In this document: positions 8,934-63,863 of the stretch, in pieces
Layout of the letters: every line of letters begins with the position of its first letter
How positions within the stretch are numbered: position 1 is the first letter of the stretch
Source of the DNA: Candidatus Lindowbacteria bacterium RIFCSPLOWO2_12_FULL_62_27
Lineage (GTDB): Bacteria > Lindowbacteria > 2-12-FULL-62-27
Length of the DNA: 64,000 nt
Direction: 5' to 3'
Assembly: GCA_001784175.1 (NCBI GenBank)
Contig: MFPR01000041.1
Span: 57,449-121,448 of the forward strand
Made by a program: the position numbers and the translations under genes
Notes under the pieces: model-generated
What the model saw: the letters and a program-made list of their open reading frames with translations, nothing else
What the model was told of the DNA's origin: nothing
Database searches by the model: none

Positions 8934-9948
8934 CCCGCTGTCGCACCGGTGGGTGATCATTGCAACCGAGCGGGCGATGCGCCCGAGCGATTTCAAGGTG
9001 GAAAATCCGAAACCGGCTGCGAGCATCTGCCCGTTCTGTCCGGGAAACGAGCACCTGACGCCGCCGGAAATCACGGCGGTCCGGCCGTCCGGCTCGGCCG
9101 CCAACAAATCCGGCTGGTCGCTCCGTGTCATTCCCAACAAATTCCCGGCCCTCCGCATCGAGGGCGAGCTTGGCCGCAAGGGATACGGGATGTACGACAA
9201 GATGAACGGGATCGGCGCGCATGAGGTGATCATCGAAACGGCGGACCACAGACTCGACCTGCCGGATTATCCGCAGTCCCAGATGGAAATGGTCCTCCGG
9301 TCCTACCGGGACAGAATATCCGATTTGAAAAAGGACCCGCGGTTCAAATACATGCTCGTCTTCAAAAACAGCGGCATCCACGCCGGCGCCAGCCTCGACC
9401 ATCCCCATTCCCAGCTCATCGCCGTCCCCGTTACGCCCAAACGCGTGTCGGAGGAACTCTTCTATTGCCGGGACTATTACGAATACAAGGAGCGGTGCCT
9501 CCTGTGCGACATCATCTCCCAGGAACAGCTCCTGGAAGAACGGCTGGTCGTGGCCGAGGAGAACATGATCGCGTACGTGCCGTACGCCCCGCGGTTTCCC
9601 TTCGAAGTCCACGTGTTGCCGCGCCGGCACATGCACGACTACTGCGGCGTGTCCGACCGCGAGATCGGGTCGCTGGCGTACGTATTGAAGACGGTCCTCA
9701 AGAAGATCCGGCAGGCGCTCGGCGATCCCGCGTACAATTACATCATCCACACCTCGCCTGTCACCCTGCCCCGGCCCGGCCATCCCGAGATGTGGGGCAC
9801 CATCGAACTCGATTATCACTGGCACATCGAGATCATTCCGAGACTTACCCGGGTCGCGGGATTCGAGTGGGGCACCGGCTTTTACATCAACCCGGTCGCG
9901 CCGGAGAATGCCGCGAAGTTTTTGCGTGAAGAGAATGTGGATGCTTGA
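8914..9948 (+). CDS. galT: Galactose-1-phosphate uridylyltransferase family protein
   Basis: Exchanges hexose-1-phosphate with UDP-hexose (the Leloir reaction) through a uridylylated histidine. The 344-residue protein starts at a TTG at 8914 (PELRRDPLSHRWV is the typical family opening), overlapping the previous gene by 20 bases. The metal-binding Cys pair lies in ICPFCPGNE and the active-site HPH in SLDHPHSQL. A second Cys pair (CLLCD) opens the second half, and HVLPRRHMHDY and HWHIEIIPR belong to the HIT-like folds. In this cluster of glucan genes its true substrate could be glucose-1-phosphate or another sugar phosphate. glgA begins 3 bases after its stop. Confidence 0.88.
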   Translation: MPELRRDPLSHRWVIIATERAMRPSDFKVENPKPAASICPFCPGNEHLTPPEITAVRPSGSAANKSGWSLRVIPNKFPALRIEGELGRKGYGMYDKMNGIGAHEVIIETADHRLDLPDYPQSQMEMVLRSYRDRISDLKKDPRFKYMLVFKNSGIHAGASLDHPHSQLIAVPVTPKRVSEELFYCRDYYEYKERCLLCDIISQEQLLEERLVVAEENMIAYVPYAPRFPFEVHVLPRRHMHDYCGVSDREIGSLAYVLKTVLKKIRQALGDPAYNYIIHTSPVTLPRPGHPEMWGTIELDYHWHIEIIPRLTRVAGFEWGTGFYINPVAPENAAKFLREENVDA

Positions 9949-36778: not shown

Positions 36779-39700
36779 ATCGATCCCGAAAACGGATTCG
36801 TGCGAATCGGGCGCCGGCCCTGCTTTTTTTACTCCTGATCGCTTTTCCCGCCCTTGCCGCCGACATCACCGGCAGGGCGCTCGTCCCGCTGAAAGACGGC
36901 TCGCAGGCGTATGTATTCCTCCTGAACAACTACGACCGGACCCGGGACGGGGAAATTTACGTCATCGTCACCTCGGGCGGAACGCGCACCGCGTACAAGC
37001 CGCAGGAGAATATTCTCGACGCGCCCGCGCAGAAGGGGAGCTGGGGCGTCAAACTCAGGGGCGATGTCCAGATCTCGATGGTCGAGGTCGTGCTCTACGG
37101 AAACCCGCCCGCGCCGGTTTCCGCGCCCGTCCTCGCGTTGCCTCCCGCCCTTGCGGGCAAATGGACGCTCTCCGACCGTATGGCCGGCGCGCTCACGCTG
37201 AAACTCGAGGCCGAGGGCGACGCGGCGAAGGGATACACGCTGACCGGCAAGGCATCGGTCAAGGACGCGGGCGAGTTCGCCGTCACCGGCACGTGGAATC
37301 CGGCGAAGCCCAGCGCGCCCCTCATCATCGAAACCTCGAATGTTTTCAAACAACTCCTCGAAGGGCTGCTCGGCCAGTCGTACCCGGCGGACGCATTTTC
37401 GCTCGGAGAAAAAATCACCGCGATAATCAACCTCCCGACGGAATGGACCGCGCAGCTTAAGAAGGGCATCAAATCGCAGGACGACCTCAAGGCATTCTCC
37501 GCCGGACAGGTGGCGGTAGGCATCGCGGTTCCGTTCACGCTGAAAATCGACCCGACAAAACCGGCGTTCAACCTGATGGCGAGGATCAACCCGGTGGCCA
37601 AGACGGTGAGCCTGTCTCTTGGCGCGGGACAGAAATGGGATAAGCCGTTTGACTTTCTGCCTGTGTCGTTCGACCAGATCGCGCTGACAACCGATTTCAA
37701 ATTCGAGAGCCTGAACGCGAAGGCGGCCGGCAACATCGAGTTCTTCGGACTGATTCCGGTGGATTTGGATATGATCACACTCAAGGGCATGAAGCCGGAC
37801 TTGAAACTCACGATCAAGCCAGACGTGAACATCCTCATCGGCGCGCTGGGCAAGCTCGAAATTCCGGTTGAGCTCAAAGATATTTTCCTGCCGGTACTCA
37901 ACAAGCTCGAGTTCGGGACGTTTAATCTCGGCGGCTTGGGCGACCTCGGCATCAGCGGCAAACTGCCGTCGCTGAAGATGGACTTTAAAATCAAGACGTT
38001 GCATTTCGACCGCACGTTCAATCTCGACATGCCCGAATTCAGTTTCCGGAAACCGGCCCTCTTCATCGCCGAGCTTGGCAAGATCGTCCTGCCGGAACTC
38101 AAGGCGAACTTCGACATCATCCTGGCGGATCTGGCGTTTGACGGGCTGATCGGCAAATGGACGCTGGCGGACTTGAGCATCGATGTTGGATCGATCAAGG
38201 TCACGGCCGAGGGCGACCCGATGGCGGGCTATGACCTCGCGTGCGCGATCACGGTGAAGGACGTCGGCACGATGAACGCCGTCGGCAAATGGAGCCCGGC
38301 CGCGCCGCTTGCGCCCGTCACGTTTCATGTTGACAACATCTTCAAGTCCGCGTTCGAGGGGCTACTGGGCGGCGCGTATCCGTCGGAGGCGTTTTCGCTC
38401 GACGAGAAAATCGACGTGACGGTGGGGCTCGACCCGAATTGGGTGGAACAATTGAAAAAAGGATCGAAAGGCGCGACGACCATCAAGACCGGGACCTACA
38501 CCCTGGTCGCGAAGATGCCGTTCAAATTAAAACTCGACCCGATGAAGCCGATGTTCAATCTGACGGCGACGATCGACGCCGTGGCGAAGACCGTGGCCGT
38601 GGGGCTGGACGAAGGTCAGAAGTGGGATCAGCCATTCGATTTCCTGCCGGTCACGTTCGACAAGATCGACCTCACATCCGATTTTAAATTCGAGAGCCTG
38701 AACGCGAAGGCGGCCGGCAACATCGAATTTTTCGGAGCGATCCCGGCGAGTCTCGATATGATCACGCTCAAGGGCATGAAGCCGGACCTGAAACTCACGA
38801 TCAAGCCCGACGTGAACATCCTCATCGGCGCGCTGGGCAAACTCGACATCCCGATTGAGCTGAAAGACATCTTTATCCCGCTTCTCGATAAATTCGAGTT
38901 TGGCGCGTTTGAGCTCGGCGGGATCGGCGACCTCGGCATCAGCGGGAAACTGCCGTCGCTCAAAATGGACTTCAAACTCAAACTCCCGAACTTCGAGCAC
39001 ACCTTCAAATTGGACATGCCCGAATTCAATTTCCGCAAGCCCGATCTCTTCACCGCCGAACTCGGTAAAATCGTTCTGCCCGTCCTCCAGGCGAATCTGC
39101 CCGATATCACAATGGGCCTGGCGCTCGAGCTTGCAACGGGCAAATGGCCGCTGGTGGATTTGAATATCGACCTCGTGAAACTGAAACTCGACGCGGAAGG
39201 CGATCCGACCAAGGGATTCACGCTCGACGGCGTCATCACCGTCAAGGATCTCGGCGACTTCAAAGTGAACGGCCTCTGGGGCAAGGACGATCCTTCAAAA
39301 GTCGTGTTCGACGTGGACAACGCCGCCCAGTCAGTTTTAGACGCGACGATCGGCAAGGCCGTGCCGAAGGACTGGTTCAAGATGGGCGACAAGATAACCG
39401 TGACGGCGACGCTCGACAAGGAGTGGTCGGACCAGCTCACGAAGGGCGCCAAGGCGGCGAACCCGTTTGACAAGGGAAACTTTACAGTCGATATCTCGTT
39501 CCCGCTCACGCTGAAATTCGACCCGACGAAAGATGCGTTCAAACTGACCGCGCACATCGACCCGCAGGCCAAGACGGCGACGATTGGCCTCGACGCGGGG
39601 CAGACGTGGTCGGACCCGTTCGGATATCTTCCCGTGACGTTCACCCAAATTGACATGGCGTCGGACGTGAAGTTCTCGAAGATAGCGATGACGTCGACCG

Positions 39701-42700
39701 CCGACATGACGTTCATCAAGCCGATCCCGCTCAAGCTCGACGCGACGATCGCAAACGGCGCGGTGACGAATTTCAAACTCATCGTGACCCCGCCCGCGGA
39801 TTTTCCAAGCGCGGTCCTGAATGCCATGAAGATTCCGGGGAACCTGTCGCTGTCTCTCGACGACGTGAAGTGGGCGCTTGACGAAATTCTGAAAAATATC
39901 AAAATGGGCGAGATCACCATCTCCGCGCCCGACTTCAACGCCAAGGTCGCCGACATCGGCCTGAAATTCAGCGTCGACCTGCCGAGCTGGAAATATGATT
40001 TCGATTTCAAGGCGCCGGGAGTCAATCTGAAGAATCTCGACAAATTCTACGTCGATTTCGGCAACTATGTCGTCCCGGTTCTGGTCGCGAACTTCGACAA
40101 AATCACGGCGGGATTGATCTTCAAGGGCATCGCGGGCAAGTGGCCGCTGGGCGATGTTGACCTTGGCATCGCGTCGGCGAACCTCGAGGCCGAAGGTGAC
40201 CCGACTAAGGGCTACACCCTCACGGGCAAGATCACGGTCGTGGAAGCGGGCGATTTCACCATCAACGGATTCTGGAGCCCGTCCACGCCGCTCGATCCGA
40301 TCAACTTCAAAGCGGACAACCTCTTCAAGACCGCCATGGACAAGCGTCTCGACCAGCTTGTTCCGAAGGACTGGATCAAACTCGACGAGAAGATCAACAT
40401 CAAAGTCGGCCTTTCGGAATCGTGGGTCAACAAATTGCAGCGCGGCGGCAGAGCGGACGCGAAGACGCCGGCGGCCGGCGGGGACAAATTTACCCTTGAG
40501 GTGTCGATGCCGCTCAAGATGATACTTGATCCGAAAAAACCGCCGTTCAATATGACTGCGTCGTACCAGCCGCTGAACGACGTCATCTCGCTCTCGCTCG
40601 ACGACGGCCAGGTTTGGGAAAAGCCGCTCGATATTCTGCCCGTCAGATTCGACAAACTCGCGCTCGGGGCCGACCCGTCCCTCACCACGCTCACCGTGAA
40701 CACGTCCGGCAAACTGGATTTTCTCGTGCCGTGCGACGTTGTTCTCGTGATGGAGACGAAAAAAGGCGCCGCCCCGAGTTACACGGTCAACCTGAAACCC
40801 GCGGCGGGCACGAACATCGTCAAGGCGATTCTCGACGGCAGAGTTCCGCCCGCAAGTCTCGCGCTGGTTAACGGCCTTCTGCCGAACACCGTGGTCGAGG
40901 AAATCAGCGTCGCCATGGACGCGACAAAATCAAAGCCGGATATCCGGCTGAAGTTCACGATGTCGAAGGAGTCGCTCTCCCAGACGTTCGATATTCTGGT
41001 GAAGGAAGCAGACATGAGCAATTCGGGCGACTTCTCCGCCAAGGCGGCGCCGCAAATTCTCGATCAGCTTTCCGGCGGCACAATCGGCGCGGCCACGACG
41101 GAACTGTTGGACAAACTCGGATTGAGCGGCGACTGGACGATCATCGATCTCAACATCGCGAGCCAGCTGATCCTGAAAGTGAACGTCAAGGGGTCGCCCG
41201 CGAAGGGCTACGACATCACGTCGGACATCAAACCGCTCGTCTTCGACCAGTTCAAACTGACGGGCCGATGGGACCCGGCGAAACCGGCCGACCCGGTTAC
41301 GCTCACCGCGGACAAAAATGTTTTCAAACCGGTCTTCGACAAGACCATCGGCAAACAACTTCCCACAGGCTGGATGGTATTGAAGGACGAACTCTTTGTG
41401 GTCATCACGTTCCCGTCGGCCATCACGGACGCGCTCACATCCGGCGGGTCGGCCGGCGCCGGCGCGACAACCGGCGCGGACGGTATCGACATGGAAATCG
41501 GGTTCCCGATGGAACTGAAGATCGATCCGACGAAAGAAAAGAGGCTTGACATGATCGGAAGTGTTCTGCCGATGAAATCGCAGGCGCAGTTGGCTCTCGC
41601 CGCTGGACAGGTCTGGGACAAGCCGTTTGGATTCGTGCCCGCGACATTCAATACGTTTACGGCCGCGTCGGATCCGAGTTTCACGCAGATCACGATCCAT
41701 GGCGAAGGCACATCGGACTTCCTCGAGGGCGAGAAAATCGACTTCAAAATCGACATCGTGTCCGTCCAGGGACAGAAACCCACACTGGAAATCAATGCGA
41801 CGCCCACGCCGGGCATGGCCAAGGCGATGATGAAGAAGGCGAATATTCCGGCCTCTTTGCAGGACTGCATCGCGACGATCGAGTTGAACAAGATCGACAT
41901 GTCCGCGGATTTTTCGAGTGTCATCAACGGCGTGGTTCCGTACTGCAAGCTCTCGTTCACGTTGAATCATCCGCTTGCGGGGAGGCTGAACATTGATGTC
42001 GGACTGCCGGCCGGCGATATGAAAGATCCGGCGGGATTCGCGAAGACAGTCGCGGAGAACGTGGTCAGTCAGCTTGAAAATATCGTGTCGCAGGTCGTCG
42101 GAAACGTCAGCAAAAAACTCGAGAACGCCGCGAAGGATCCCGTCGGCACCGCCAAAGATCTCGCCAACACCGCCGGCAACACAGCGCAGGACATCGCCGC
42201 GTCAACAAAGGATTTCTTCAAGGATCCGGGCCGGAACACGGTGGATCTCGCCAAAAATGCCGCGAAGATGGCCGAAGATCTCGGCAAGCAGGTCGTGTCC
42301 AATGTAACCGCCAAGCTCGAAAAAATCGCCGAAGATCCGATCGGCGCCGCCATCGAGGCCGCGCAGGCCGCTTACGACGCGGCGGTGAGCGTCGCCAACA
42401 GCATCGCGGACTTCTTTTCGGATATCGGCAGTGCGATCGTAGACTTCTTCGGCGGCGGGGACGACGGCCCCAGCGACGAGGAGATCGCCGCGCAGGAGGC
42501 GGCGGACAAAGCGAAGGCGGATGCGCAGAAAAAATTGAATGATTTGTACATAGAACAGATGAACAAGCGGATTGCGGAAATACTTCGCAACGCCGACTTC
42601 GAAAATTGCAAGAAAGCCATCGCCGCCGCGACAACCATGCAGGAGGCCGAGAAGATCGCGTACAACGACTTCCAGCCGGCCTATTCGCATCTGTTGAACT

Positions 42701-45700
42701 CGGACAAGACTCAATTGTACGAAGAGGTCAAGAAGAAGGCGATGTCCATCGCGCCGCCGCCATCCGAGTCGATGGCCTGGTGGCGGAACAAGATGTCCGA
42801 CGCCGAAATCTGGTGGCTCGACGACGGGATCAAATTCATCGACGGCAAGGAATTTCCGAACAACACATGGTTCTCGAATGTCTCCGGCCTCTCGGCGGCG
42901 GACAAGGCCGCGCTGAAGAGCGAGATGAAAGCGAAACAGCCAGCCAAGCTTCTGAAGTGGCAGACGAAGTATATTCGCGATTATCGCGAGGGCATGGACT
43001 GGGCCTTCACGATTCAGGATGTGCTGAATCAGATTGAGTGGATCAACAATGACATCATGAACCGCCTCAACCAGGACCAGGTCGCCGATCTGAAAAAATA
43101 TGCGGATGCCGCGATCGCAAGGGTCAACGCCGCATGGCTGGAAAAGTTCACGGACCAGATAAACGGCGCGAGCACTGAATATCGGCTGTATGAGGTGCAG
43201 TCCGATATGGAGATCAGCTACAACCTGACGGCGCCGCAAAAGGCGGTCTTGAAGAAAAAAATTGCCGCGCTCCTGCCCAACATCAAGACACAGGGGCCGA
43301 TCAACGCGATGAGGAATATGGAGAAACGGATCGCGGAGGAAATGAATTTCGCAGTCCTCAAAGGGCTTGACGAGCGTCTGACTGCGGGCCCGTTGGAAAT
43401 GCCGTTCGCCGCGAATTCCGTGGAAGACGTTATAACGCAGATTAAATTGAGCCACGATGATGCGCTTGACGCGGATTTGAGCGTATTGTCCGACGATTCA
43501 AAGGAAATCCTGGGCGGGCTGATCCGGCAACGCATATACAGTCTGCGCGGAATACACGACGCCGTGGTGAATGTGCAACTGAAGCGCATATCTAATATGA
43601 TGCTTGGCTCCGAAATTGAACTCCTGAGCTACCAAATAGACGGCCGCGCCGCCCCCGATCTCTCTTATTTGGGCGATGACAACAAAAAGAAATTGCGGGA
43701 TGAAATCCAAAAGCGATTTAATCAGGCGCCTATCCGTCAGAAGGCGTTTGATGAGATGTATCTGGCAATCGATAATGCGGCGACTTGGGCGGATCTTACA
43801 AAACTCCAGGACGCTCTCTCCGGAAAGAGCGTTGAGGGCTTGCCGGTTATTTTGAACCTGACCGAACTCGACATCGAGCGGCTGACCGAGAGGGTCACGG
43901 AAAAGCTGGACGTCATCAATACTGAACTGAAGAAGTTCCGCGCGGGAATCGCCGCCGCGACCACGAACGCCGATATCAAGTCATGGAAAGGAAAGATTGA
44001 TGAAAACAAATCGCTGGCCGCCGACCAGAAGAAGGCGCTGAAAGACGAGGCCGACGCGAAATTCGCGGAACTAGCCGCGAAGGAATTAAAAAGCATGCAG
44101 GACGGCATCACCGCCGCGACGACAAGCGCCGATATCAGCACGTGGGAATGGTCGATCGACAACAGCGACTTGCTCACCGCCGACCAGAAAAAGACGTTGA
44201 AATCGCAGTCCAAAGCGAAGCGCATTCCGCTCCTCATCTCCTACCCTTTCGATCAGACGATGGACATCGCCAACCTCAACCGGTGGAAAGGCATGCTCAA
44301 CGGCACGGCCATCGACCGGTATCCGGTCACGCTGGATTATCTGAAAGAGCCCGAGGTCACGATGATCAAGGAAAACATTCTCTCGCTGACTGCGGATCAG
44401 AAGGCCGGCTACCTGAAGACAATCGAAGAGCGCCTGGTCATCGCGAACAAGGAGCGTGAAGAATACGTGGCCGCCGCCAAGGCCAAGACCGCCAGCCTGA
44501 CGAAGTACGCAGAATTGGTCGAGCACAAAGATCATATCAAAACGTCTTCGGGTCTACCGGATGACATCAAGGCGACGCTGACGGGCGAAGTGGACGTGAA
44601 AATCCAGTCGCTCTTCGGCGCGGAACTCGACGGGTATATGGCCACGTTCCGTAGCGCCCTCGTGGATGCCGACGGTATGTCCTCCGAGAAGCGCACGTTG
44701 CGGCTGAAAGCTATCGAAGACTATCTCAATGGCTATTATGCGTCTCTCACCGGGCTTCCGAACATAAAGTTCATGACCGCGGACCAGATCGCGATGATGA
44801 AGAAGGAAGTCGCGCTGGCGAAAAATCCCCCGAGCGCCACGGACCGCGCGGCCGTGGTCAAAAAATACACCGACGCCATCGCGGCGGCAAAGGATGAAGC
44901 GGCCATCAAAACCCTGAAGGCGCAGATCGAGTCGGACTCGACGCTCTTATGGTCCGACAAATATCCTCTGATCGGGTCGATCAACGCGAAAACGGTCATG
45001 AAGCTGACCATGCCGGAGAACGTCAAGGTCGGCAAGGAGATCAGGCTGAACATTTCCGGCGGCTGGGCGCCGTTTAAGTACGAACTCGAACGCAATAGGT
45101 CCGGAGCCTCCTTCGTCGGCGACGTCTACAAGACCGGATCGTTTGCGACGGCCATGAATGAAATGGGAAATATCATTGTCGTCACCGACGCGACCGGACA
45201 GACCCAGAAAGCGAATGTCCGCACCATCGCGGGCATTACCGTCAGCCCGTCGGGAAAAACCAGCGTGATGGCGGGGGGCAGTATCACGTTTACCGCTCCC
45301 GGCGGCGTCGGAACTCCCAGTTTTTCCCTGGACCCGAACAATTCGAATGGTTTCATCAATGAACAGACGGGCGTCTATACCGCGGGCACAGGAAAATCGA
45401 ATGTGGAGGATGGGATCAAGGCTCGCGACTTCGACTTCAACTCCGATGTCGTCACGGTGTTTGTTTATCCCAAGCCGACGGCGCAAGTCAGCGACGATCG
45501 CGCAAAAACGTTCCGGGACCGGCTGGCCGCCGCGAATTCGGTCGAGGCCGCTGAATTGGTGAAGACGGAACTCAACGCGGATACTCTGCTGACGCAGGAG
45601 AAGAAGGCCGAGTTGATCAAGGAGGCCGATGCCCGGGCAAGTCTTCCCGATCTGAAGGAAAAGGCGCAGAAAGAGGCGCTCGCGAACTTCCCGAAAAAAC

Positions 45701-47388
45701 TTAAGGATTGGATCGCCACGGAATCGAGCGCGGATCGCCTTGATGTGGTCGGCCGATATATTTTTAACTACATTCAGTATCCCACCCCCGCGCCGTCCGG
45801 CATGGATTGGCTGATCGACGGGCTCAAGTACTATTCGGACGCGGAATTGAGCGATTTGTCCAAGGAATGCTCTCTGCCGGGATCGATCAAGACCATCCGC
45901 GGATGGTTGGAGGATCCGATGACGTCGACAGAAACGGTACGGTGGAGAATCAAAGGATTCAATTATTCGGATGCGAAGAAGGAGAAACTCCTCCTCGAGG
46001 TCGACGCGTGGGTCGCCACGGTGGATACATCGACCAAGGCCGCGTATGACGCGAAGGCCAAGGCGGCGAAAGAGGCCGAACAAGCGGCGATGGATGCCAA
46101 GATCGCCGACGTGACCGCCAAATCGGAGATGCGCATTTCGATCACGTCCCTGTATCAGAGCATATTGTACCGGGCGCCCACGGCGATGGAATTGGCAAAC
46201 AACGAAGGATATTTTGCTTCTTTCGGTCTCGCCGATATCGCCAACAGTCTATTGACGTCGGACGGATTCAAGAATCTATCCGCCGCCGAAAAAATTAAAT
46301 CCCTGTACCGATTCATTCTGCGGAGAGACGCCGATGCGGACGGAACGGCGTACTACGGCGCGTCGGGCAAGTCGACCGCTGAAATCGCCAAGGCTCTGTA
46401 TGAAAGCGATGAACACAAAAAACTCGCGGAGGATAAAAAGACGCTTATCAAAGATGTGCTTACAAAGTACGGAGTCAATTTGAGCGCATCTTCCGCGGCA
46501 ACGACAACTGCAATGACAACCGCTACAAGTTACACCCCGTCCGCAACGAACCTTGCCAAAGGCAAATCCGCGTCCGGCAGTGCGGCCTGCGGGACGAGCG
46601 AAGGCCCTGAAAAGGCGGTCAACGGAACGTCGAGCGGCGGCAATTCCGACAAATGGTGTTCGCTCGCTGATCAAAAATATCTGGATGTCGATCTGGGCGC
46701 GTCCTATTCCATCACCGAATTTGTCGTCGCGCACGCGGGCGCGGGCAGCGAGGATGCGTCGTTCAACACGAAAGACTTCTCCTTCTCGGTCAGCGCGGAC
46801 AAGACGACGTGGACGGACATTTTGACGGTGAGCGGAAACACAAGCAACGTAACGAAACACGCGGTTCAGGGCACAGGACAATATGTCCGGTTGAACATCA
46901 AGACGCCGACCCAGACAACGGACAAAGCCGCGCGAATTTATGAGTTCGAAGTCAACGGCACGATTGTCCCGGCTGTGTCCAACCTCGCCAAAGGAAAAAC
47001 AGCGACCGGCAGCGCCAGTTGCGCCTCGTCCGAAGGGCCCGAAAAGGCGGTCAACGGGAGCAAATCGGATAAATGGTGTTCGAAGGCGGATCAGAAATTT
47101 CTCGAGGTCGACCTCGGCGCGCCGTACTCCATCACGGAGTTTGTCGTCGCGCACGCGGCCGAGGGCGGAGAGGGCTCGTCGTACAACACAAAAGATTTTA
47201 AAATCTCGGTCAGCGCGGACAAATCGTCTTGGACCGAGAGTGTCAACGTGAGCGGAAACACCAGCAATCTCACGAAACATGCGGTTACGAACACGACGGG
47301 CCAGTATGTTAAATTGACCATCACGACGCCGACCCAGACGGCGGACCCGGCCGCGCGCATTTACGAGTTTGAGGTGATCGGACGATGA
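36775..47388 (+). CDS. Giant secreted repeat protein (3537 residues) with five ~331-residue repeats, DUF4214 and two discoidin domains
   Basis: GTG start, signal peptide (ALLFLLLIAFPALA). Residues ~129-1776: five tandem repeats of ~331 residues, each opening with G-K/D-W and containing LEAEGDP-KGY and FNLTA motifs; I know no family for them. Residues ~1777-1915: amphipathic apolipoprotein-like helices (NVSKKLENAAKDPVGTAKD). Residues ~1915-2740: degenerate ~50-residue helical repeats (AATTSADISTWEWSID, LTADQKKTLK). Residues ~2742-2899: two Ig-like modules also seen in the ubiquitin-domain protein. More helices, then a DUF4214 domain (~3121-3232, LYQSILYRAPTAMELANNEG) and two F5/8 type C (discoidin) domains (~3259-3396 and 3403-3537). 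Likely an extracellular adhesin or fibre. Coupled to neighbours on both sides. Confidence 0.85.
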   Translation: MNRSRKRIRANRAPALLFLLLIAFPALAADITGRALVPLKDGSQAYVFLLNNYDRTRDGEIYVIVTSGGTRTAYKPQENILDAPAQKGSWGVKLRGDVQISMVEVVLYGNPPAPVSAPVLALPPALAGKWTLSDRMAGALTLKLEAEGDAAKGYTLTGKASVKDAGEFAVTGTWNPAKPSAPLIIETSNVFKQLLEGLLGQSYPADAFSLGEKITAIINLPTEWTAQLKKGIKSQDDLKAFSAGQVAVGIAVPFTLKIDPTKPAFNLMARINPVAKTVSLSLGAGQKWDKPFDFLPVSFDQIALTTDFKFESLNAKAAGNIEFFGLIPVDLDMITLKGMKPDLKLTIKPDVNILIGALGKLEIPVELKDIFLPVLNKLEFGTFNLGGLGDLGISGKLPSLKMDFKIKTLHFDRTFNLDMPEFSFRKPALFIAELGKIVLPELKANFDIILADLAFDGLIGKWTLADLSIDVGSIKVTAEGDPMAGYDLACAITVKDVGTMNAVGKWSPAAPLAPVTFHVDNIFKSAFEGLLGGAYPSEAFSLDEKIDVTVGLDPNWVEQLKKGSKGATTIKTGTYTLVAKMPFKLKLDPMKPMFNLTATIDAVAKTVAVGLDEGQKWDQPFDFLPVTFDKIDLTSDFKFESLNAKAAGNIEFFGAIPASLDMITLKGMKPDLKLTIKPDVNILIGALGKLDIPIELKDIFIPLLDKFEFGAFELGGIGDLGISGKLPSLKMDFKLKLPNFEHTFKLDMPEFNFRKPDLFTAELGKIVLPVLQANLPDITMGLALELATGKWPLVDLNIDLVKLKLDAEGDPTKGFTLDGVITVKDLGDFKVNGLWGKDDPSKVVFDVDNAAQSVLDATIGKAVPKDWFKMGDKITVTATLDKEWSDQLTKGAKAANPFDKGNFTVDISFPLTLKFDPTKDAFKLTAHIDPQAKTATIGLDAGQTWSDPFGYLPVTFTQIDMASDVKFSKIAMTSTADMTFIKPIPLKLDATIANGAVTNFKLIVTPPADFPSAVLNAMKIPGNLSLSLDDVKWALDEILKNIKMGEITISAPDFNAKVADIGLKFSVDLPSWKYDFDFKAPGVNLKNLDKFYVDFGNYVVPVLVANFDKITAGLIFKGIAGKWPLGDVDLGIASANLEAEGDPTKGYTLTGKITVVEAGDFTINGFWSPSTPLDPINFKADNLFKTAMDKRLDQLVPKDWIKLDEKINIKVGLSESWVNKLQRGGRADAKTPAAGGDKFTLEVSMPLKMILDPKKPPFNMTASYQPLNDVISLSLDDGQVWEKPLDILPVRFDKLALGADPSLTTLTVNTSGKLDFLVPCDVVLVMETKKGAAPSYTVNLKPAAGTNIVKAILDGRVPPASLALVNGLLPNTVVEEISVAMDATKSKPDIRLKFTMSKESLSQTFDILVKEADMSNSGDFSAKAAPQILDQLSGGTIGAATTELLDKLGLSGDWTIIDLNIASQLILKVNVKGSPAKGYDITSDIKPLVFDQFKLTGRWDPAKPADPVTLTADKNVFKPVFDKTIGKQLPTGWMVLKDELFVVITFPSAITDALTSGGSAGAGATTGADGIDMEIGFPMELKIDPTKEKRLDMIGSVLPMKSQAQLALAAGQVWDKPFGFVPATFNTFTAASDPSFTQITIHGEGTSDFLEGEKIDFKIDIVSVQGQKPTLEINATPTPGMAKAMMKKANIPASLQDCIATIELNKIDMSADFSSVINGVVPYCKLSFTLNHPLAGRLNIDVGLPAGDMKDPAGFAKTVAENVVSQLENIVSQVVGNVSKKLENAAKDPVGTAKDLANTAGNTAQDIAASTKDFFKDPGRNTVDLAKNAAKMAEDLGKQVVSNVTAKLEKIAEDPIGAAIEAAQAAYDAAVSVANSIADFFSDIGSAIVDFFGGGDDGPSDEEIAAQEAADKAKADAQKKLNDLYIEQMNKRIAEILRNADFENCKKAIAAATTMQEAEKIAYNDFQPAYSHLLNSDKTQLYEEVKKKAMSIAPPPSESMAWWRNKMSDAEIWWLDDGIKFIDGKEFPNNTWFSNVSGLSAADKAALKSEMKAKQPAKLLKWQTKYIRDYREGMDWAFTIQDVLNQIEWINNDIMNRLNQDQVADLKKYADAAIARVNAAWLEKFTDQINGASTEYRLYEVQSDMEISYNLTAPQKAVLKKKIAALLPNIKTQGPINAMRNMEKRIAEEMNFAVLKGLDERLTAGPLEMPFAANSVEDVITQIKLSHDDALDADLSVLSDDSKEILGGLIRQRIYSLRGIHDAVVNVQLKRISNMMLGSEIELLSYQIDGRAAPDLSYLGDDNKKKLRDEIQKRFNQAPIRQKAFDEMYLAIDNAATWADLTKLQDALSGKSVEGLPVILNLTELDIERLTERVTEKLDVINTELKKFRAGIAAATTNADIKSWKGKIDENKSLAADQKKALKDEADAKFAELAAKELKSMQDGITAATTSADISTWEWSIDNSDLLTADQKKTLKSQSKAKRIPLLISYPFDQTMDIANLNRWKGMLNGTAIDRYPVTLDYLKEPEVTMIKENILSLTADQKAGYLKTIEERLVIANKEREEYVAAAKAKTASLTKYAELVEHKDHIKTSSGLPDDIKATLTGEVDVKIQSLFGAELDGYMATFRSALVDADGMSSEKRTLRLKAIEDYLNGYYASLTGLPNIKFMTADQIAMMKKEVALAKNPPSATDRAAVVKKYTDAIAAAKDEAAIKTLKAQIESDSTLLWSDKYPLIGSINAKTVMKLTMPENVKVGKEIRLNISGGWAPFKYELERNRSGASFVGDVYKTGSFATAMNEMGNIIVVTDATGQTQKANVRTIAGITVSPSGKTSVMAGGSITFTAPGGVGTPSFSLDPNNSNGFINEQTGVYTAGTGKSNVEDGIKARDFDFNSDVVTVFVYPKPTAQVSDDRAKTFRDRLAAANSVEAAELVKTELNADTLLTQEKKAELIKEADARASLPDLKEKAQKEALANFPKKLKDWIATESSADRLDVVGRYIFNYIQYPTPAPSGMDWLIDGLKYYSDAELSDLSKECSLPGSIKTIRGWLEDPMTSTETVRWRIKGFNYSDAKKEKLLLEVDAWVATVDTSTKAAYDAKAKAAKEAEQAAMDAKIADVTAKSEMRISITSLYQSILYRAPTAMELANNEGYFASFGLADIANSLLTSDGFKNLSAAEKIKSLYRFILRRDADADGTAYYGASGKSTAEIAKALYESDEHKKLAEDKKTLIKDVLTKYGVNLSASSAATTTAMTTATSYTPSATNLAKGKSASGSAACGTSEGPEKAVNGTSSGGNSDKWCSLADQKYLDVDLGASYSITEFVVAHAGAGSEDASFNTKDFSFSVSADKTTWTDILTVSGNTSNVTKHAVQGTGQYVRLNIKTPTQTTDKAARIYEFEVNGTIVPAVSNLAKGKTATGSASCASSEGPEKAVNGSKSDKWCSKADQKFLEVDLGAPYSITEFVVAHAAEGGEGSSYNTKDFKISVSADKSSWTESVNVSGNTSNLTKHAVTNTTGQYVKLTITTPTQTADPAARIYEFEVIGR
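37159..42100 (+). repeat. Five tandem ~993-base coding repeats
   Basis: Units begin at 37159, 38152, 39139, 40135 and 41128, giving spacings of 993, 987, 996 and 993 bases. Units 1 and 2 are the most alike at the DNA level: both encode SLNAKAAGNIEFFG and TLKGMKPDLKLTIKPDVN with few base changes, so their duplication is the most recent. Units 3 to 5 have diverged further. Confidence 0.85.
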
Positions 47389-54797: not shown

Positions 54798-56057
54798 TCA
54801 TGATGTATCCGGTATAATGTCCGACCCGGCATAGAAATTCGCTTTGATCCGATCCACCCAATATCGGATGCTCTTGTCAATGCGCATGGCCGCCTTCACA
54901 TTCAGACGAATGAAAGCATGAAATAAATTGTACGCCACGAATAATAACAGCCAGATCACCGTCATCGCGTTCACGTCATGTTTGTAGACGTGGTCGGCGT
55001 GCCACTCGTTCACCAATTCGTTGAACCCTTCGTTCTCCACCGCCCAGCGGCGGTGTCCGCCTTTCACCGCCGCGCGACTTGGGAATTTCTCCTTCGACAA
55101 CGTCATCACCCACCACCATCCGGCCGTCTTCACCTCCAACCGCCCGTCTTTCTGCCTTCGAATAGTTTGTGTCTCAACCGTCCGCACCACCCGCACCGGC
55201 CGATCCATCGCGTCCCACGACTCAAAGCCCTCCAGGTCCCAGCACCGGTAGACCTTTCCGTCTTCCTCCCACTGCTCCGGCGTCATCTTGTCCATCAGCC
55301 CCTCCGCGTCCCTCAGCACTTCCCGCCGTTCGTCCTTCAACACCGCCATCGCGTCCTTCCCATAGTCCAGACACATTTTGAAAAACGGCGCACGGGCATA
55401 CAAACTGTCCGCCACCACCTTGTCGAAACTCCGGCCATAATCACGGATCACCCGCTCCAGGCACCTCACCGAGCACGCGACCTCGTCCTCGCCTCCAGCC
55501 TGCATCTCCATGTCCAACAAAATCGTCCATTCTCCGCAAACCCACATCGCCGTCACACACCGATGGTAATACTGGACCCGGTCCTCTTCCGACATGTGGA
55601 TCGTCCGTTCCAGACAGTCCGGACAGCACCTGAGAAAACTGGCGCTGATCTCATGCCCGTCCACCACCACCTGCCCCCGCCCCTCTTCAAACGCTTTCCG
55701 AAACGCCTTGTTTCGTTTCATCTTCCGGATCAATTTCCGACTCACCACGCGCAAATCTTTCGTCTCCACACTCGCCGTGATCCGCCCCATCTGATCCGCT
55801 TTCGGCAATCGTCCTCCTACCCACCGTTTGGCAAACCCTCCCCATTGATGCTGCTCCAGCGCGTTGAAACTCCCCACCCTCGCCAGCAACATCACCAAGA
55901 GCCCACGCGCCACAGCCGGCGTCTGGTACTCCCCCTCGCCCTTGCGCGTGTCGCCCACCTGCCGGATCATCTCCGACAGCCCATAGACCCGATCCGCGTA
56001 CTTCAATAATCTCCGAAGAATCTCCTCTATCCCTCCCGTTCTCTCAACTTCCACCAC
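54798..56057 (-). CDS. DDE-type transposase of an IS with an accessory gene
   Basis: 419 residues. An RNase-H-like transposase: first Asp in GQVVVDGHEISAS, second Asp in KVVADSLYARAPF, and Glu in RRWAVENEGFNELVNEW, the last in a form close to IS4-type (R...E) signatures. A CxxC pair (RCCPDCLE) lies after the first Asp. The C-terminus has a hydrophobic segment (VIWLLLFVAYNLFHAF) common in such transposases. The gene appears intact. Its start lies 31 bases inside the DUF6788-like gene, and the two make up the element; I found no clear terminal inverted repeats. Confidence 0.85.
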   Translation of the reverse strand: MVEVERTGGIEEILRRLLKYADRVYGLSEMIRQVGDTRKGEGEYQTPAVARGLLVMLLARVGSFNALEQHQWGGFAKRWVGGRLPKADQMGRITASVETKDLRVVSRKLIRKMKRNKAFRKAFEEGRGQVVVDGHEISASFLRCCPDCLERTIHMSEEDRVQYYHRCVTAMWVCGEWTILLDMEMQAGGEDEVACSVRCLERVIRDYGRSFDKVVADSLYARAPFFKMCLDYGKDAMAVLKDERREVLRDAEGLMDKMTPEQWEEDGKVYRCWDLEGFESWDAMDRPVRVVRTVETQTIRRQKDGRLEVKTAGWWWVMTLSKEKFPSRAAVKGGHRRWAVENEGFNELVNEWHADHVYKHDVNAMTVIWLLLFVAYNLFHAFIRLNVKAAMRIDKSIRYWVDRIKANFYAGSDIIPDTS

Positions 56058-56405: not shown

Positions 56406-56740
56406 CACCTTTTTCAAATGCGAATTTGCCCGTCTATCCGATGATTTCGATTCTGTCCGCCTGGGAAGGACTTACGGCCTTACTGGCCCCTTATTTGCGG
56501 AATCGCTGGCCTGACGGATTGGGCGGGATCAACAGTTCGAGGGATAATTTTTCATAGCGGCAAGGCATGTCAGGGATTCCCTGACATCATTATCCTCCCT
56601 TCCCTGAATTGACGGCCCCACCGCCTGAAGAGACTTTCAAATAATTTAATGAAGACCGAAATCGAGCCGTATCGTATTCGTATTTTTTTTGATACAAAGA
56701 TTGAACTAAGGTACGGACTTTGCACAGGAGGAGAGGCCTT
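56406..56740. other. Non-coding region between the IS and the FecR-domain gene
   Basis: No convincing gene; reading frames here are short and unlike any family. It holds a near-perfect palindrome, TGTCAGGGA-T-TCCCTGACA (56568-56586), and an AT-rich stretch (56638-56710) that probably contains the promoter of the following gene. A weak candidate is TTGATA near 56690 with a poor -10. Confidence 0.5.
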
Positions 56741-57700
56741 CTGAATACATCTAGTGTCCATGCGCCCGCCGGCTTCCTGCGGCTCGGCGCGCTTCTCGTT
56801 TCCATTCTCTGGCTGGCGGCGCCTTTTGCCGACGCCGCCGAAATCCTCTCCGGCAAACTGTCCGACGTCCGCGGCGACGTGAGAATCCAGCGGCGCGGGT
56901 CGAACATCACGTCTCTGGCGCCCTCCGGCACACGCGTCGAGCCGGGTGACGCCGTCATCACCGGCATGGCGGGCCGCGCCAGGATCGCGATGAAACATGG
57001 CGTCCTCCACGTCGATCCGGCCAGTCGGGTTGTCCTCATGCGCGGCCTCGCCGGGCGGTCCGAGGTATTCGCCGAATTCGCGATGCCGTTCGGGTCCGTG
57101 ACGGCGCATATTAATATGGAGAAGGGCAAGGAACACTGGTTCGACATCCTGACCCTCAACACGCGCGCTCGCGGCCGGGGACACAAGGAAGGGGCGCAAC
57201 TCGTCGTCCATCACGAAGCCGGCGCGACGACCGTGACCGACAGCGCTTCCGGCCGGTGGGAACAACTCCCGATGATCCTGCCCAACGAGCCGCCCGCCGT
57301 TCAGGCCGTTCTCACCGATGCCGCCAACGCAACAACCTTGGTCAAAACATATCTCGACAGTGCATTGAGCGAATCGGTGCTCCGGGCCGTGGATGTCGCG
57401 GCCCAGCCGGGCGCGCCGGATCTGATGGCAGTTCAAATCGTGCCCGCGCCGGTCGTGGAACCAGCTCCTGTCGAACCGCCTCCCGCGAAACCGGCGGAAA
57501 GTCCAAAGCCTGCGCCCAAGCCTGAACCGCCCGCGGCGCCCGCACCACAGCCGCCGCCCGCGCCAGAGCCTCCACCCGCTCCTGCGCCGCCACCACCGCC
57601 TCCGCCGCAAACGCCGCCGCTCAAGTTGACGTTGACGCCGCAAGAAGGCAAAGGCGCCGTGCTTTCCAATTCCGCGACCGTAACGTCCGAGAACAAATAA
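56741..57700 (+). CDS. Secreted FecR-domain protein with proline-rich C-terminus
   Basis: About 319 residues. There is no ATG or GTG in a suitable place; CTG at 56741 sits 7 bases after GGAGGAG and is the best start (TTG 56720 would place the ribosome-binding site inside the gene). Signal peptide: [19 protein letters not shown] FecR-type beta-domain follows ([46 protein letters not shown]). From about residue 220 to 300 it is almost pure Pro/Ala/Glu ([20 protein letters not shown]), a likely wall-spanning or extended linker. It ends one base before the ubiquitin-domain protein gene, so the two are probably co-expressed and may interact. Confidence 0.78.
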
Positions 57701-57701
57701 G

Positions 57702-60700
57702 ATGCGCTCGATGCTTGCCCGGAACCGCTGGTCGCGCTTCCTCATCCTGTTGCCTGTAGTCTGTTTCCTGTTGCCTTTCTTTTCGGACACCGCGCTGGCC
57801 ATGCAGATTTTCGTCAAGACGCAGACCGGCAAAACCATCACGCTCGATGTCGAACCCTCGGACGCCATCGAGAACATCAAAGCGAAAATTCAGGACAAGG
57901 AAGGCATTGCGCCGGGCGAACAGAAACTGATCTTTGCGGGAAAACAACTCGAGGATGGCCGGACGCTCTCCGACTACAACATCCAAAAAGAATCGACGCT
58001 CCACTTGGTGGTGAAAAAGGCGCAAGCGCCGGCCGGGAATCTCAAGATCAGGCTGTGGGCCTACGCGGGCGCGACGGTAAGCGCCGCGACGTCCGGCGGC
58101 GTCCCGCCTTACACATACTCGATCTCAACCAATAACTCCGGCGCGGCGATCTCCTCCGACGGCCTCTACACGGCCGGGCCGACATCGGGCGTGAGCGACA
58201 TCATCCGCGTCACCGACGCGGACGGGACGTACCTCGAGGGCGAGGTCGAAGTCCGGATCGTGCCCGCTCCGAAACTCACCATCGTCTCCATCACCGCCGC
58301 GCAGGAAAAATATAATCCGGGCGACAAGGTCACGGGCGAGATCATGATTAAAAACAGCGGCACGGCCGACGCCGATGCCGTCGTCGACCTCGGGGTTGCC
58401 AGTCCGAATGGAAAAGAATCGTACAAAATCGACAACCTGGCGGCCGCGGTGGAGAAGGGCGCCGAGAAGGCGGTCGCGTATTCGTTCGAACTCAAATCGG
58501 ACGCGGCCGACGGACAATACAAGGCAAACGCCATCGCAAAGATCGGCTCGCAAACCGCCGCGGAGTTGGCCGACGTCCATGTGTTCATCGTCGTTCCGAA
58601 GCCCAAGCCCAAACCGCCGGTCAACACGGTTGCGCCGCAAATCAGCGGCGGCACAAAGGCCGGTGAAAAACTCACGTGCGGCACGGGCGAATGGACCGGC
58701 GATCCGACGATAGAATACAGCTACCAGTGGCAGAGGGAAGGCAAGGAGATTTCCGGCGTGTCGAGCGCCGAATATGTCATCCAGAACGTGGACCCCGGCC
58801 TCGCGCTCACCTGCGTCGTGACGGCGAAGAATGATGCCGGATCGGCATCGAAGCCCGCCCAGAATTCGATCGCTGTCGTACTTGAGCCAGTCACGATCGA
58901 ACCGGCGAACGTGACTCTGGAGGCGGGAGATGCCGTAACCTTCACCGGCAAAGGCGGTCGGGCTCCGTACACGTTCGAAGCTTCTAGTAAGACTATCGAT
59001 GCGTCGACAGGCAAATACACAGCACCGGCAAGCTCGACAGGCGGGTCTGCTGATATTTACGATGTGAACGTCTTCGACGACCAAAAAACCGGAGCTCGCG
59101 CCGAGGTTTATATCATTCCTCCGAAATTATCCGCTTTCATCACGACGGACAAGAAAAGTTATCTGCCGGGAGAAGAAGTCCGTGTCACAGTCACTGTCAA
59201 GAGCGCAAGTTATTGTGATTGGCAGACGTCCGTCTGGGGTATTTCTGTAAAACAGGGTGACGCGCATTCGGGATATGGAAAAGCTGATTTGAATGGGATT
59301 CTTATTGTTCCGAAGGGTGGTGAGACATCGTACAAATTTACTTTCAAAGTGAACACTAACGGCGTGAAATATGGCACGTATTCGGTTGCTGCGAATTTCA
59401 AGCCAACCGTTAAGGCAGACCATATCAAAGACGTACGTATCGCATTGAATCCAGACCCAGTCCAATTCGAAGTCATCGCGCCCCCGACACCTCCGGCCAA
59501 CACCGAAGCGCCGAAAATTAGCGGCGACGGACTCGTGGATGGCGAGGCCGGGATTGACGTGAAACTTACGTGCTCGACGGGCGAGTGGACGGGCGATCCG
59601 ACGATCGCGTATTCATATCAGTGGACGAGGGACGGAAAAGACATCACCGACGCGACAAACGCCGACTACACGACGACCAAGGACGACGCCGGCATGAAAC
59701 TGAAATGCGTCGTGACCGCGAAAAACGATGAGGGGAAGGCGGCGAAAGAAAGTTCGAACTCCGCAACCATCGTCGTTCCGGATCTGGTGATCGACCCGAC
59801 GGAGGCGACGATATCGGAGGAGCAGTCGGTGACGTTCACCGCAAGCGGCGGGTACGGCAAATATACATTCTCCATCGCGGAAAACAAATCGCGCGGAAAT
59901 GGGATTAAGGTGAGGGGGGCCAACAATAAATTCATCTATACGGCAGGCGAGCTGGCCATCGACAACGTGCAGGACGTGGTGGCGGTGAAGGACGAATTGG
60001 GCAAGGAGGCCAAAGCGGTTGTCACCGTAAAGCCGGAGGAGCCGGTCAACTCGGTTGCTCCGCAAATCAGCGGCGACGGACTCGTGGACGGCGAGGCCGG
60101 GATTGATGTGAAACTTACATGCTCGACGGGAGATTGGGTGAGCGATCTGGAAATTACCTACTGGTTTCAGTGGCGTCGGGACGGCAAGCCAATCGACGGC
60201 GCGAATTCGGCCGGCTACACGACGACCCAGGACGACGCCGGCACGAAACTGAAATGCGTCGTGTCCGCGCATAACGATGCGGGGATGAACTTGAAGGAAA
60301 GTTCCAATTCGGTCACCGTCAAGGCGGCGGAGCTGACGATTTCACCGGCGCAGGAAAGCGCTACCGCGGGCGCGGTGATCACGCTTCAGGCGGCCGGCGG
60401 CGAGCCGCCCTACGAATTCAGTTTCATCGAAAACAATTCAAACGCGGAGCTGACTCGAGACGAGGAGGCCACGGATCTATCGCCGGACATCTACTACACC
60501 GCCGGCGCGCCGGAGATGGATGTGATCGATCAGGTTCAGGTCAAGGACAAGCTCGGCGCCACCGCGGTTGCGTCGCTGACCGTCACCGCTCCGCCTCCGG
60601 TGGATAATGGCGATGGACAGGGCGAGGGCGGCGGATCCAATCAAAACGATTACTATGACAACGACGGCGACGACGGCGGCGGATCCAACATCGGCGGCGG

Positions 60701-63700
60701 CGGGTCGAAAGGCCCCTACAAGAAGGGGGCGACGGTCAAGGCGATCAACGCCAACAATCCGAGCCAGGTTGTCACCGGCGAGATCCTCGACGACAACGGG
60801 AACTTCTTCCTCACCGTCCCGTGGTCCGGCCCGACCCTCATACGGATATCCGGCCCCTTCGTGGACGAATTCACCGGCGAAGTGAAGACGATCGACGAGC
60901 CGATCGAGGGGGTCGTGAACGCCCAGAACCACGACACGGTTAACTGTTCCATTCACATCCCCTCGACCATCGCGAGCAACATCGTGGAGGACAAAATGAA
61001 AGCCGACCCGTCCAAAAAAATCACGCCCGTGGACGTCGTCTCGGCGAACCGCAAAGTGGGCAAGATGCTCGGCCTCTCGGGCGACATCGACGTCAGCCGG
61101 ATCGACATCCGGGACACCTCCATTCCGAATGCGGAAAAGCTCCTGAACTTCCAGATCTCCGTCGCCGCCAACGCGGGAGTCGAGAAGGCGATCGAGGCCG
61201 CGAAGCAGATCGCGGTAGAATTTGCGCGGAATAAACCGGCGGGCTCGTCGCGCGGCGGCGTGGTCAAGGCGGCCGAATTGAAGAAGACGCTGGAGAATAT
61301 CGAGGCGGGACGAAATATCTCCGTAAAAACGGAAAGCGGCAAAACGATCAGCGTTGCTCCGGCCACCGTCATCAAGAACGTCGTCGTGCAACGCCGGCCG
61401 CCGCCCCGGCCAGTGGCCGAGCCCGCCAAAAAGCCCGGCGCGAAGGAGAGATTGAGCGACAAGATGGTTCCGCCCGGATACAAATATGAATTGATCTACA
61501 AGGACAATTCGGGTCAGCAGAAATCGCGGATATACAAAGAGGGCGAACGGCTGTTCGCCGACGACATGGCGGAATTCATCAAGATCAAAGTCCTGCGCGC
61601 CGATACGGCGCCGGCCGAGCCCGCCGATGCCCGGATCAACGAGGCCAAAAAAATTCTGGCGGGAATGGCCGACGCGTTGAACAAAAAAGATGTCAGCGGC
61701 ATGACCGCCCCGGTCGCGCCTGACGCGATCGTGACGATGAATGGCAGGCGGTCCGACGGCGCGGGCCTGCGGCAACTGCTCGATGCGGCGCTTCCCCTCC
61801 TGGACAATGTCCAATGGAACCTGCAAATCCAATCGGCAGCGGTCGACCCCAAAACCGGAAACGTCCGTGTGCGGGTGACGTCGTCGTATTCGGCCGAACT
61901 CATGGAACCGGTCGGCGTGACGCGCGAGTCGCTGCCGAAACCGGAAGAGGTCAAGGCCTATCAGATGCGGCTCCTGGAATCGTTGCGGTCCACTTCCGAC
62001 GAAATCTATGAATTCAAATCAACCACCGCCGGCCTGCAACTGGTCGAGATGGTCTCCGGTCTGCCCTTCAGCGCCGACCTGGCCGACAAAATCTCCAGCC
62101 TCATGGCGGCGTGGCGGGTGAAAGTCACGGTGTTCGGGCTGTTCGATCATCTGGAACAGAACAATCTCGCAAAATTCTCGGAACTCATCGCTGAAGCCTT
62201 CGTCAACAACGACGACAACAATTTCAAACACAACCGCGCCGATTTTATCGAGTCCATCAAAGCCGACCTCGACCACCTCACGGCGATTGACCACGGCGTC
62301 CGCGTCGAGGACATCCAGTTCACCGCGGACCATTCCATCGCGCGCGTCCCCGTCACGTGGGACCGCCGCGCCCGCATCGCCAACACGCGCTCGGAGTGGA
62401 CGGTCAAAAATCAGAAAACGACGCTGACGCTGACAAACGGCGGTCTGTTCAGGCTCGCGCAGATCGAAGGCAAGCCCCTGTTCGGCAACTCGAGCCGCCT
62501 GACGCGAAAGACCTTGATCCGCGCGGGCGAACTCGACGGCGTGACGGTGACGAAAGCGGTCGTCATCGGCGACGGGCGGGACACCGCGGCCGCGACGAGC
62601 GCCGACGTGCCGGAAATGCCGGCGGAGAACATCTCAAGCCTCAACATAAGCACAGAGATCAGCAACGGGACCATCTCTTCCAATCCAACGGTTGATCAGA
62701 CGTGGAAGGGCAACATCACGATCACCTCGAACATCACGATCCCCTCCGGGATCAAGATCACCGTCGTATCGGGCGCTGTCATCACGCTGTCCGACAACGT
62801 GACGATTACCGTCGCGGGAACATTGGAGCCGACCAGCGCGACGTTCACGTCCGGGACAACGTGCGGCCTCACGATCTCCAGCGGCGGGACCGTGACGTCG
62901 GCCGGCACAAGCTACACATGGGGCAACAACTCGACAATCACCGTCGCGTCCGGCGGGACGGCGACGTTCACCAGCGGCACGTGGTCCATGGGCACGGGCA
63001 CGACCATCGCCGCCAGCGGCACGCTCTCGGCGACGAGCGCCACGTTCAAGGCGGCCTCGACAAGGTGGGGCGGGATGACGATCGCGTCCGGATCGGCCGT
63101 GACGATCACGAGTTGCACGATGAAGGAAGCCGACACGCTCATCATCACGACCGCCGCCAGCCCGACGATTTCCAGCAACACGCTCAATCCTGTCCGGTGC
63201 GCCATCCAGGTCAAATCGAGCGGGTCTCCCGTCATTACGGGGAACACCATCACGTCTCTGTCGGGGTCGTTCATTGCCGCCATGGCGCTCGATGTCGGCG
63301 TCAATTCTTCCGCCAGCATTTCTTTCAGCAACAACACCATCACGAAACTCGGGTCGGCCGTTCCCAATGTGAGTATCGATTACAACGCCAATATCCAGAT
63401 TCGGTCGGGTTTCACCGGCACATTCACGTCCTCGGGCAACCGATTGACCGGCGATCACACCGGCGCGGTGTCCGGCACGGCGCTCAATACGTATGGCGTT
63501 ATTCTCGCCACGGACGCCGGTTCGGCCACATTCACAAATGATGTCTTTAACGAGTTTGCGGTTGGACTCGAAAACCGCGGATCTGATAATGATTATACCG
63601 GCGCGGACCAGGGCATTTCCCTCACCTTCACGAACTGCGACTTCACGCACAACAGATTGGATGGACTAAACGGAGGGAACGCCACCGCCGACGGTACGCC

Positions 63701-63863
63701 GTCCATCACGCTGACCGGCTGTTTCTTCAAGGGTAACGGCGACGACCACGGAACACAGGCGGTCAACACGGGCACCACCGTGCCGGACGCCGTCAACGGC
63801 GCGGACGACACCTACATGGACGTGACGTCCGTCACAAATCCGCGGTCGAGCGCGAACAACTGA
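57702..63863 (+). CDS. Giant secreted protein with N-terminal ubiquitin domain (2053 residues)
   Basis: Residues 1-33: signal peptide ending TALA. 34-109: ubiquitin domain ([40 protein letters not shown]). Then ~113-187: Ig-like module A; 190-297: NEW3-like; 307-393: Ig-like ([11 protein letters not shown]); 396-475: module A; 475-597: another beta-sandwich; 599-695, 695-778, 781-876 and 877-966: alternating Ig-like and A modules; 967-1003: Asp/Gly-rich linker; ~1003-1090: regulatory-type beta domain; ~1090-1260: helical; 1309-1400 and 1475-1593: SnoaL/DUF4440-like; 1647-2053: right-handed beta-helix ([20 protein letters not shown]). Predicted extracellular. No enzyme motif is certain. Starts one base after the FecR gene stop. 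Confidence 0.88.
57801..58028 (+). other. Ubiquitin domain coding segment
   Basis: 76 codons that align without gaps to human ubiquitin from Met1; I count 62 identical residues. Differences are L8Q, E16D, T22A, V26I, P37A, D39G, Q40E, R42K, and the tail L71V, R72K, L73K, R74A, G75Q, G76A. All seven lysines, Ile44 and Val70 are kept; Leu8 of the hydrophobic patch is lost, and so is the Gly-Gly needed for activation and conjugation. The predicted signal peptidase site lies exactly before Met1. Codons are G/C-ending like the host genes. Confidence 0.95.
59497..60330 (+). repeat. Duplicated Ig-like domain segments in the ubiquitin-domain protein
   Basis: The segments starting near 59517 and 60063 are almost identical for ~60 bases: both encode [20 protein letters not shown] with four or so base changes, and then diverge gradually. 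An older relative lies at 58618. This is recent in-gene duplication of a two-module unit. Confidence 0.85.

Follow-up and report, generated by a model that had tools for sequence, protein, structure and literature searches.

A eukaryote-type ubiquitin forms the mature N-terminus of a large, predicted exported protein of a Candidatus Lindowbacteria bacterium, encoded within a 64,000-nucleotide stretch of DNA that was analysed as a whole and is referred to here as the window. On sequence evidence the protein belongs with the exported bacterial ubiquitins, in a form joined to larger proteins of which many carry a surface anchor; this little-known group is widespread across phyla, and its use outside cells is largely undescribed. 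Whether its ubiquitin head serves as a non-covalent extracellular binding module for a putative ligand is a question on which we stand evenly balanced. The gene, its upstream neighbour and the parts of its product are laid out in window coordinates as follows.

56720-57700, forward strand: upstream gene, predicted exported protein with a Pro-rich tail (open reading frame translation)
57702-63863, forward strand: ubiquitin-head open reading frame, 2053 residues
57702-57800, forward strand: predicted Sec signal peptide, 33 residues, judged from sequence features
57801-58028, forward strand: ubiquitin domain (Pfam PF00240, identity to human ubiquitin, AlphaFold2 model, Foldseek match)
57801-58016, forward strand: folded part of the ubiquitin
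58017-58028, forward strand: degenerate tail in place of LRGG
58044-58259, forward strand: domain 2, all-beta (alignment of family copies; model strands 82-152)
58311-58544, forward strand: MG2-like beta-sandwich stretch (Pfam PF01835, E 6e-08)
59556-59777, forward strand: top-scoring Ig-like repeat of the stalk (Pfam Ig_2, Ig_3, fn3; translation)
61665-61883, forward strand: SnoaL-like stretch (Pfam), inside the region of residues 1278-1688
63063-63548, forward strand: C-terminal right-handed beta-helix (Pfam PF13229, E 8.9e-06)

The predicted signal peptide combines a positive N-end and a hydrophobic core with an A-L-A cleavage site that abuts ubiquitin Met1 (the leader ends DTALA), and the initial annotation, which had set the ubiquitin directly after a TALA terminus, was correct in both arrangement and coordinates. 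Pfam PF00240 matches residues 36-106 with 96.7 bits, against a cut-off of 25.4 bits (E 6.6e-28). Alignment bears out the earlier count of 62 residues in 76 identical to human ubiquitin (82%, ungapped), all of which lie within residues 1-72, as well as the retention of seven lysines (K6, K11, K27, K29, K33, K48 and K63), the replacement of Gly-Gly and the change of Leu8 to Gln. The 14 differences from human are L8Q, E16D, T22A, V26I, P37A, D39G, Q40E, R42K, L71V, R72K, L73K, R74A, G75Q and G76A. With KAQA standing where the C-terminal LRGG should be, the domain is not a conjugatable modifier. An AlphaFold2 model spanning mature residues 1-168 has a ubiquitin fold, confidently predicted with pLDDT 91-96 over residues 1-70, and the modelled domain superposes on solved ubiquitins at 0.4-0.7 Å over 71-73 residues (Foldseek). 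Chance is excluded as the source of this match.

Large Ig-repeat bacterial adhesins are built from a signal peptide, repeated Ig-like domains and a beta-helix. The window protein has the same parts, including several similar Ig-like copies along its stalk (for example at residues ~320-390, 605-700 and 785-880), but its tip is a eukaryote-type ubiquitin and it lacks a recognised C-terminal anchor, a Pfam profile search having returned no barrel, SLH, CTERM, sorting or membrane/wall match. We therefore infer its surface location, and the earlier description of a giant surface protein holds for the size and only in part for the surface.

The family of the window bacterium comprises three genomes, each from a different genus, and the gene is present in every one (three copies in the window genome, two in G001 and one in G002), while 57 more distant genomes examined have no ubiquitin-head gene. 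All six family copies run from signal peptide to ubiquitin to domain 2. Identity between copies is 74-86% for the ubiquitin (one divergent short copy left out), 47-76% for domain 2 (50-76% without the divergent short copy) and, that copy again left out, 27-43% for the best matching stretches of the remainder. In this family no other part of the protein is as well conserved as the ubiquitin, which suggests a function, with the caveat that a compact ubiquitin core changes slowly in any setting. Residue 8 is Gln or Ala in three of the six copies, and one copy carries I44K. The region of residues 1278-1688 of the window protein corresponds in G002 to a gene of its own, lying downstream of the one for ubiquitin (L102, reverse strand, 7296-9623; 48% identity), so the family also shuffles C-terminal parts. 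In the window genome (4.39 Mb, 44 contigs, 94% complete) the second and third of the three ubiquitin-head loci (L098 on contig C39 and L099 on C9) lie less than 1 kb from contig ends, which suggests assembly breaks at repeats; the third copy is short (332 residues) and strongly diverged, down to 56% identity.

A single base separates the stop codon of the upstream gene from the start codon of the ubiquitin gene. The upstream product has no Pfam match, and its gene recurs at the equivalent position of three relative loci with 40-51% identity; at a fourth, where the contig ends, its tail alone is seen. Elsewhere in the neighbourhood, a second giant protein is encoded by a 3537-residue open reading frame (window 36775-47388) with F5/8 type C domains and DUF4214, and a transposase-like frame (window 54798-56057, reverse strand; DDE_Tnp_1, E 1.6e-06) lies between kinase/regulator genes and the ubiquitin gene pair. 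A search for anti-phage defence gave no match. The surprise of the match and the GC content of the ubiquitin part, 0.526 compared with 0.597 in the rest of the gene, might suggest that assembly or contamination had misjoined a eukaryotic ubiquitin stretch to a bacterial gene. We give this next to no credence, given that the same join appears in six copies from three genera, that the upstream gene is conserved and that the window ubiquitin is well diverged from human. Other carrier genomes examined hold exactly one copy in 22 of 24 cases, and two copies in the remaining two, unlike eukaryotic contamination, and many carriers are isolates. Six family copies, single copies in most carrier genomes and isolate carriers together rule out contamination or a chimera.

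The initial annotation had held close bacterial homologues to be rare. Scanning 84,980 species genomes for just two short peptide patterns, both drawn from the six family copies, instead confirmed at least 191 relatives, 80 of which were kept. After duplicate removal, 126 ubiquitin occurrences were gathered among the matches listed, 100 of them, likewise among the matches listed, with a hydrophobic segment and small-residue cleavage site directly before Met1. Carriers span at least 14 phyla (Pseudomonadota, Bacillota, Bacteroidota, Verrucomicrobiota, Actinomycetota, Planctomycetota, Acidobacteriota, Myxococcota, Bdellovibrionota, Campylobacterota, Chlorobiota, Synergistota, Lentisphaerota and Methanothrix-like archaea) and include about 19 named isolates. 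With the architecture present in every genome of the family and in many phyla, the proposal that a laterally acquired eukaryote-type ubiquitin became the N-terminal module of an exported protein is supported. Within families the distribution is patchy, with 9 of 197, 3 of 295, 6 of 74 and 12 of 295 species carrying the gene. Ubiquitin genes of other kinds were also encountered. Three actinobacterial metagenome-assembled genomes (L046, L047 and L083) hold tandem ubiquitin genes without a signal peptide, each followed by the same domain of ~150 residues (STGVVTYQ...), apparently a different and intracellular bacterial ubiquitin-fusion family. In a Myxococcaceae metagenome-assembled genome (L036, 716-1486), adjacent genes, both without a signal peptide, encode ubiquitins of two sorts, one a divergent ubiquitin-like domain and the other near-canonical with LRGG at its end.

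The usual picture of ubiquitin is of a modifier inside eukaryotic cells, with one celebrated secreted exception, in Bacteroides fragilis. Prokaryotes have small modifiers of their own on the beta-grasp theme, Pup, UBact, Bil, TtuB and SAMP, which are conjugated in the cytoplasm and have diverged much further. The likeness of the window ubiquitin to these stops at the small modifier/beta-grasp theme, as it is non-conjugatable and predicted to be exported. The signal peptide of the B. fragilis protein, BfUbb, ends exactly at Met1; the secreted protein has no Gly-Gly and is lethal to other B. fragilis strains, and its authors described it as one of few bacterial ubiquitins or as unique (PMC3352274, PMC5705921). 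The window protein resembles BfUbb in having a signal peptide directly before Met1, a eukaryote-like ubiquitin without Gly-Gly and a bacterial genome. BfUbb comes without conjugation machinery, and none was detected in the window genome, where the searches for E2, UCH and RING are weak evidence, the controls being silent too. Unlike BfUbb, which is a free protein of 76 residues, 63% identical to human ubiquitin and ending in Cys, it is closer to human and heads a chain of 2053 residues. Secreted ubiquitin-extension effectors of plant-parasitic nematodes, as described in PMC5705921, likewise pair an exported ubiquitin with a replaced C-terminal extension, but they are eukaryotic, their extension has 12 residues and they have no surface stalk.

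By analogy with BfUbb, a ubiquitin head on a stalk or autotransporter could poison competitors by binding an exported or periplasmic protein. BfUbb is the only experimentally studied exported bacterial ubiquitin, and its tail-less form, start at Met1 and killing of conspecific strains would all suit such a role, as would the tie between BfUbb sensitivity and Tyr119 of a peptidyl-prolyl isomerase (a later study, as cited in PMC12396204). The patchy occurrence, from 3 of 295 to 6 of 74 species per family, and the carriage by phages described below would also suit a competition factor. However, BfUbb is small and freely secreted with a narrow intraspecies action, and bovine ubiquitin is inactive; the gene is kept in all three genera of the window family, unlike a strain-variable toxin, and no immunity-gene pairing was identified. 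We consider antagonism of this kind improbable.

What follows the ubiquitin differs widely between carriers. Among the matches listed, 74 full proteins include 13 with an autotransporter barrel, seven with fn3, five each with SLH, IPTL-CTERM and InlB-type repeats, and two with a T9SS Por_Secre_tail. The downstream regions, again among the matches listed, form at least 45 unrelated clusters at E 1e-5, some of which span phyla, such as one joining Pseudomonas with Akkermansiaceae. One head common to different envelope types argues that the head itself is selected. At ~8 loci in several phyla the exported ubiquitin stands alone, like BfUbb.

Site rates computed over 96 exported ubiquitins, with buried and exposed positions in sets that we assumed from general knowledge of ubiquitin structure, average 0.09 at buried residues, 0.35 at those exposed within 1-72 and 2.71 in the tail (73-76). 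Mean identity to human is 0.27 in the tail, near random, and 0.94 at the six exposed lysines; L050 was left out of the identity comparison as an insertion shifts its register, its figure of 8% not being divergence. The E1/DUB-facing set (36, 40, 42, 49 and 70-72) evolves at a rate of 0.92, ahead of the remaining exposed sites (p=0.0014). The Ile44 patch has no advantage in conservation over exposed sites elsewhere (p=0.50), so that specific conservation of this patch was not seen. Exposed Q2, K6, T12, K29, K33, D58, N60, Q62 and E64 have rates as low as those of the core, conservation being inflated at positions 1-8 and 23-30, where the scan patterns lie. The pattern says that conjugation and tail recognition have been abandoned and the other surface retained.

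A structural explanation may be considered, in which a fast-folding, stable and protease-resistant ubiquitin emerges first from the export channel, blocks back-sliding and shields the free end of the protein with no ligand involved. The ubiquitin is always at the mature N-terminus and sits there on unrelated partners, its buried residues are the most conserved class and its conjugation features are gone, all as expected of such a cap or export ratchet. The slow exposed residues are not, stand-alone exported ubiquitins have nothing to cap, and the only one of these that has been studied is a toxin (PMC5705921). The very stable cap suggested by the initial annotation thus leaves both the stand-alone forms and the surface conservation unexplained, and we regard it as an unlikely explanation, if one to be taken seriously.

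The initial annotation had also proposed a chain acceptor, or a decoy for eukaryotic E3s and deubiquitinases, for which no positive evidence was found. Protists are common in the rumen and gut. Several carrier records name rumen or gut samples, and the lysines, each of the seven being kept in 92-99% of copies and all present in the window copy, would allow a part in the ubiquitin system of protist grazers or animal hosts, whether as acceptor or as decoy for E3s, deubiquitinases or ubiquitin-binding proteins. The surface lysines are conserved, as is most of the exposed surface. Against such a part, the E1/DUB-facing surface is relaxed beyond other exposed sites, the Ile44 patch is not specially conserved and is altered in several family copies, and the protein, if exported as predicted, is outside the compartment where E1, E2 and E3 enzymes work. 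The window genome moreover belongs to a deep lineage, and a relative (L068) was binned from groundwater. Engagement with a eukaryotic ubiquitin system therefore seems very unlikely. Within the host there is no evidence of a conjugation system, several control searches being silent too: the window genome matches ThiF once and Prok-JAB once clearly, two families that most control bacteria have as well. Searches for E2, UCH and RING were negative, which at 94% completeness and with equally silent controls is weak evidence.

Across 84 genes the GC3 of the ubiquitin part tracks that of the remainder of the same gene (r=0.90), and most ubiquitin pairs are close to saturation at synonymous sites; together these indicate that most copies are not very recent imports. 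Near identity and an intact eukaryotic surface point to a probable eukaryotic source for the exported ubiquitins. The phylogeny for which the initial annotation had called was built from 72 columns: with 77 of 109 inner branches unsupported and human, yeast and giant-virus-type sequences mixed among the bacterial rows, it does not separate one capture from many, and a single resolved origin is not recoverable from it. In IMG/VR phage contigs, a signal peptide-ubiquitin gene occurs as a 151-residue frame adjoining terminase and portal genes (L092-L094, L159), as a frame of 481-486 residues flanked by tail and tape-measure genes (L095, L164), and at L160 (5896-6816) in the vicinity of genes for a terminase and a methyltransferase. 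A ubiquitin gene that lacks the signal peptide adjoins those of a phage primase and helicase (L165, 6001-6738). Ruminococcus albus 7 carries its exported-ubiquitin gene on a 421-kb megaplasmid. GenBank phages gave no match. Two other IMG/VR contigs (L088, L089) hold eukaryotic-virus-type multi-ubiquitin genes with Gly-Gly linkers.

Our preferred model is that bacteria captured a eukaryote-type ubiquitin, gave it an export signal and stripped its conjugation tail, so that it would stand as an exposed N-terminal head on an exported stalk of domain 2, Ig-like repeats and beta-helix. Outside the cell its likeliest role would be that of a compact non-covalent binding head, rather than of a modifier, a substrate or an acceptor of chains. 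The cassette of signal peptide and ubiquitin would have spread among bacteria, partly via phages and a megaplasmid, and recombined onto whichever anchor the recipient envelope uses. Counted in favour of the binding head are its recurrence, diverse partners, loss of the tail, constraint within the family, old residence, the lack of a detected conjugation set and the carriers of transfer. Other points count against it. Repeated and fairly recent captures of a near-invariant eukaryotic ubiquitin may account for part of the low amino-acid divergence, and ubiquitin, with its compact core, is by nature slow to change. The conservation at positions 1-8 and 23-30 is inflated by the scan patterns, and the third window-genome copy is both drifted and short. 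More broadly, exported non-conjugatable ubiquitin may be a general bacterial extracellular recognition head, captured from eukaryotes, carried by lateral transfer and phages into at least 14 phyla, mounted on all major anchor types and contacting grazers, hosts or competitors through a surface other than the E1/DUB face; this extension is tentative, and we hold it to be somewhat doubtful.

The literature searched, which mostly left subscription journals outside and so is not proof of novelty, contained no paper on an exported ubiquitin fused to surface anchors. Culturable carriers suitable for testing the model include Saccharibacillus, Paenibacillus, Cohnella, Dyella, Sphingomonas, Flavobacterium, Loktanella, Rhodopirellula and Ruminococcus albus. 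If exported ubiquitin is a recurrent head of bacterial surface proteins, ubiquitin would have a second, non-covalent and extracellular career, and these proteins would form a collection of conjugation-dead ubiquitins made by nature, from which one could read the faces that persist once the conjugation cascade is gone.
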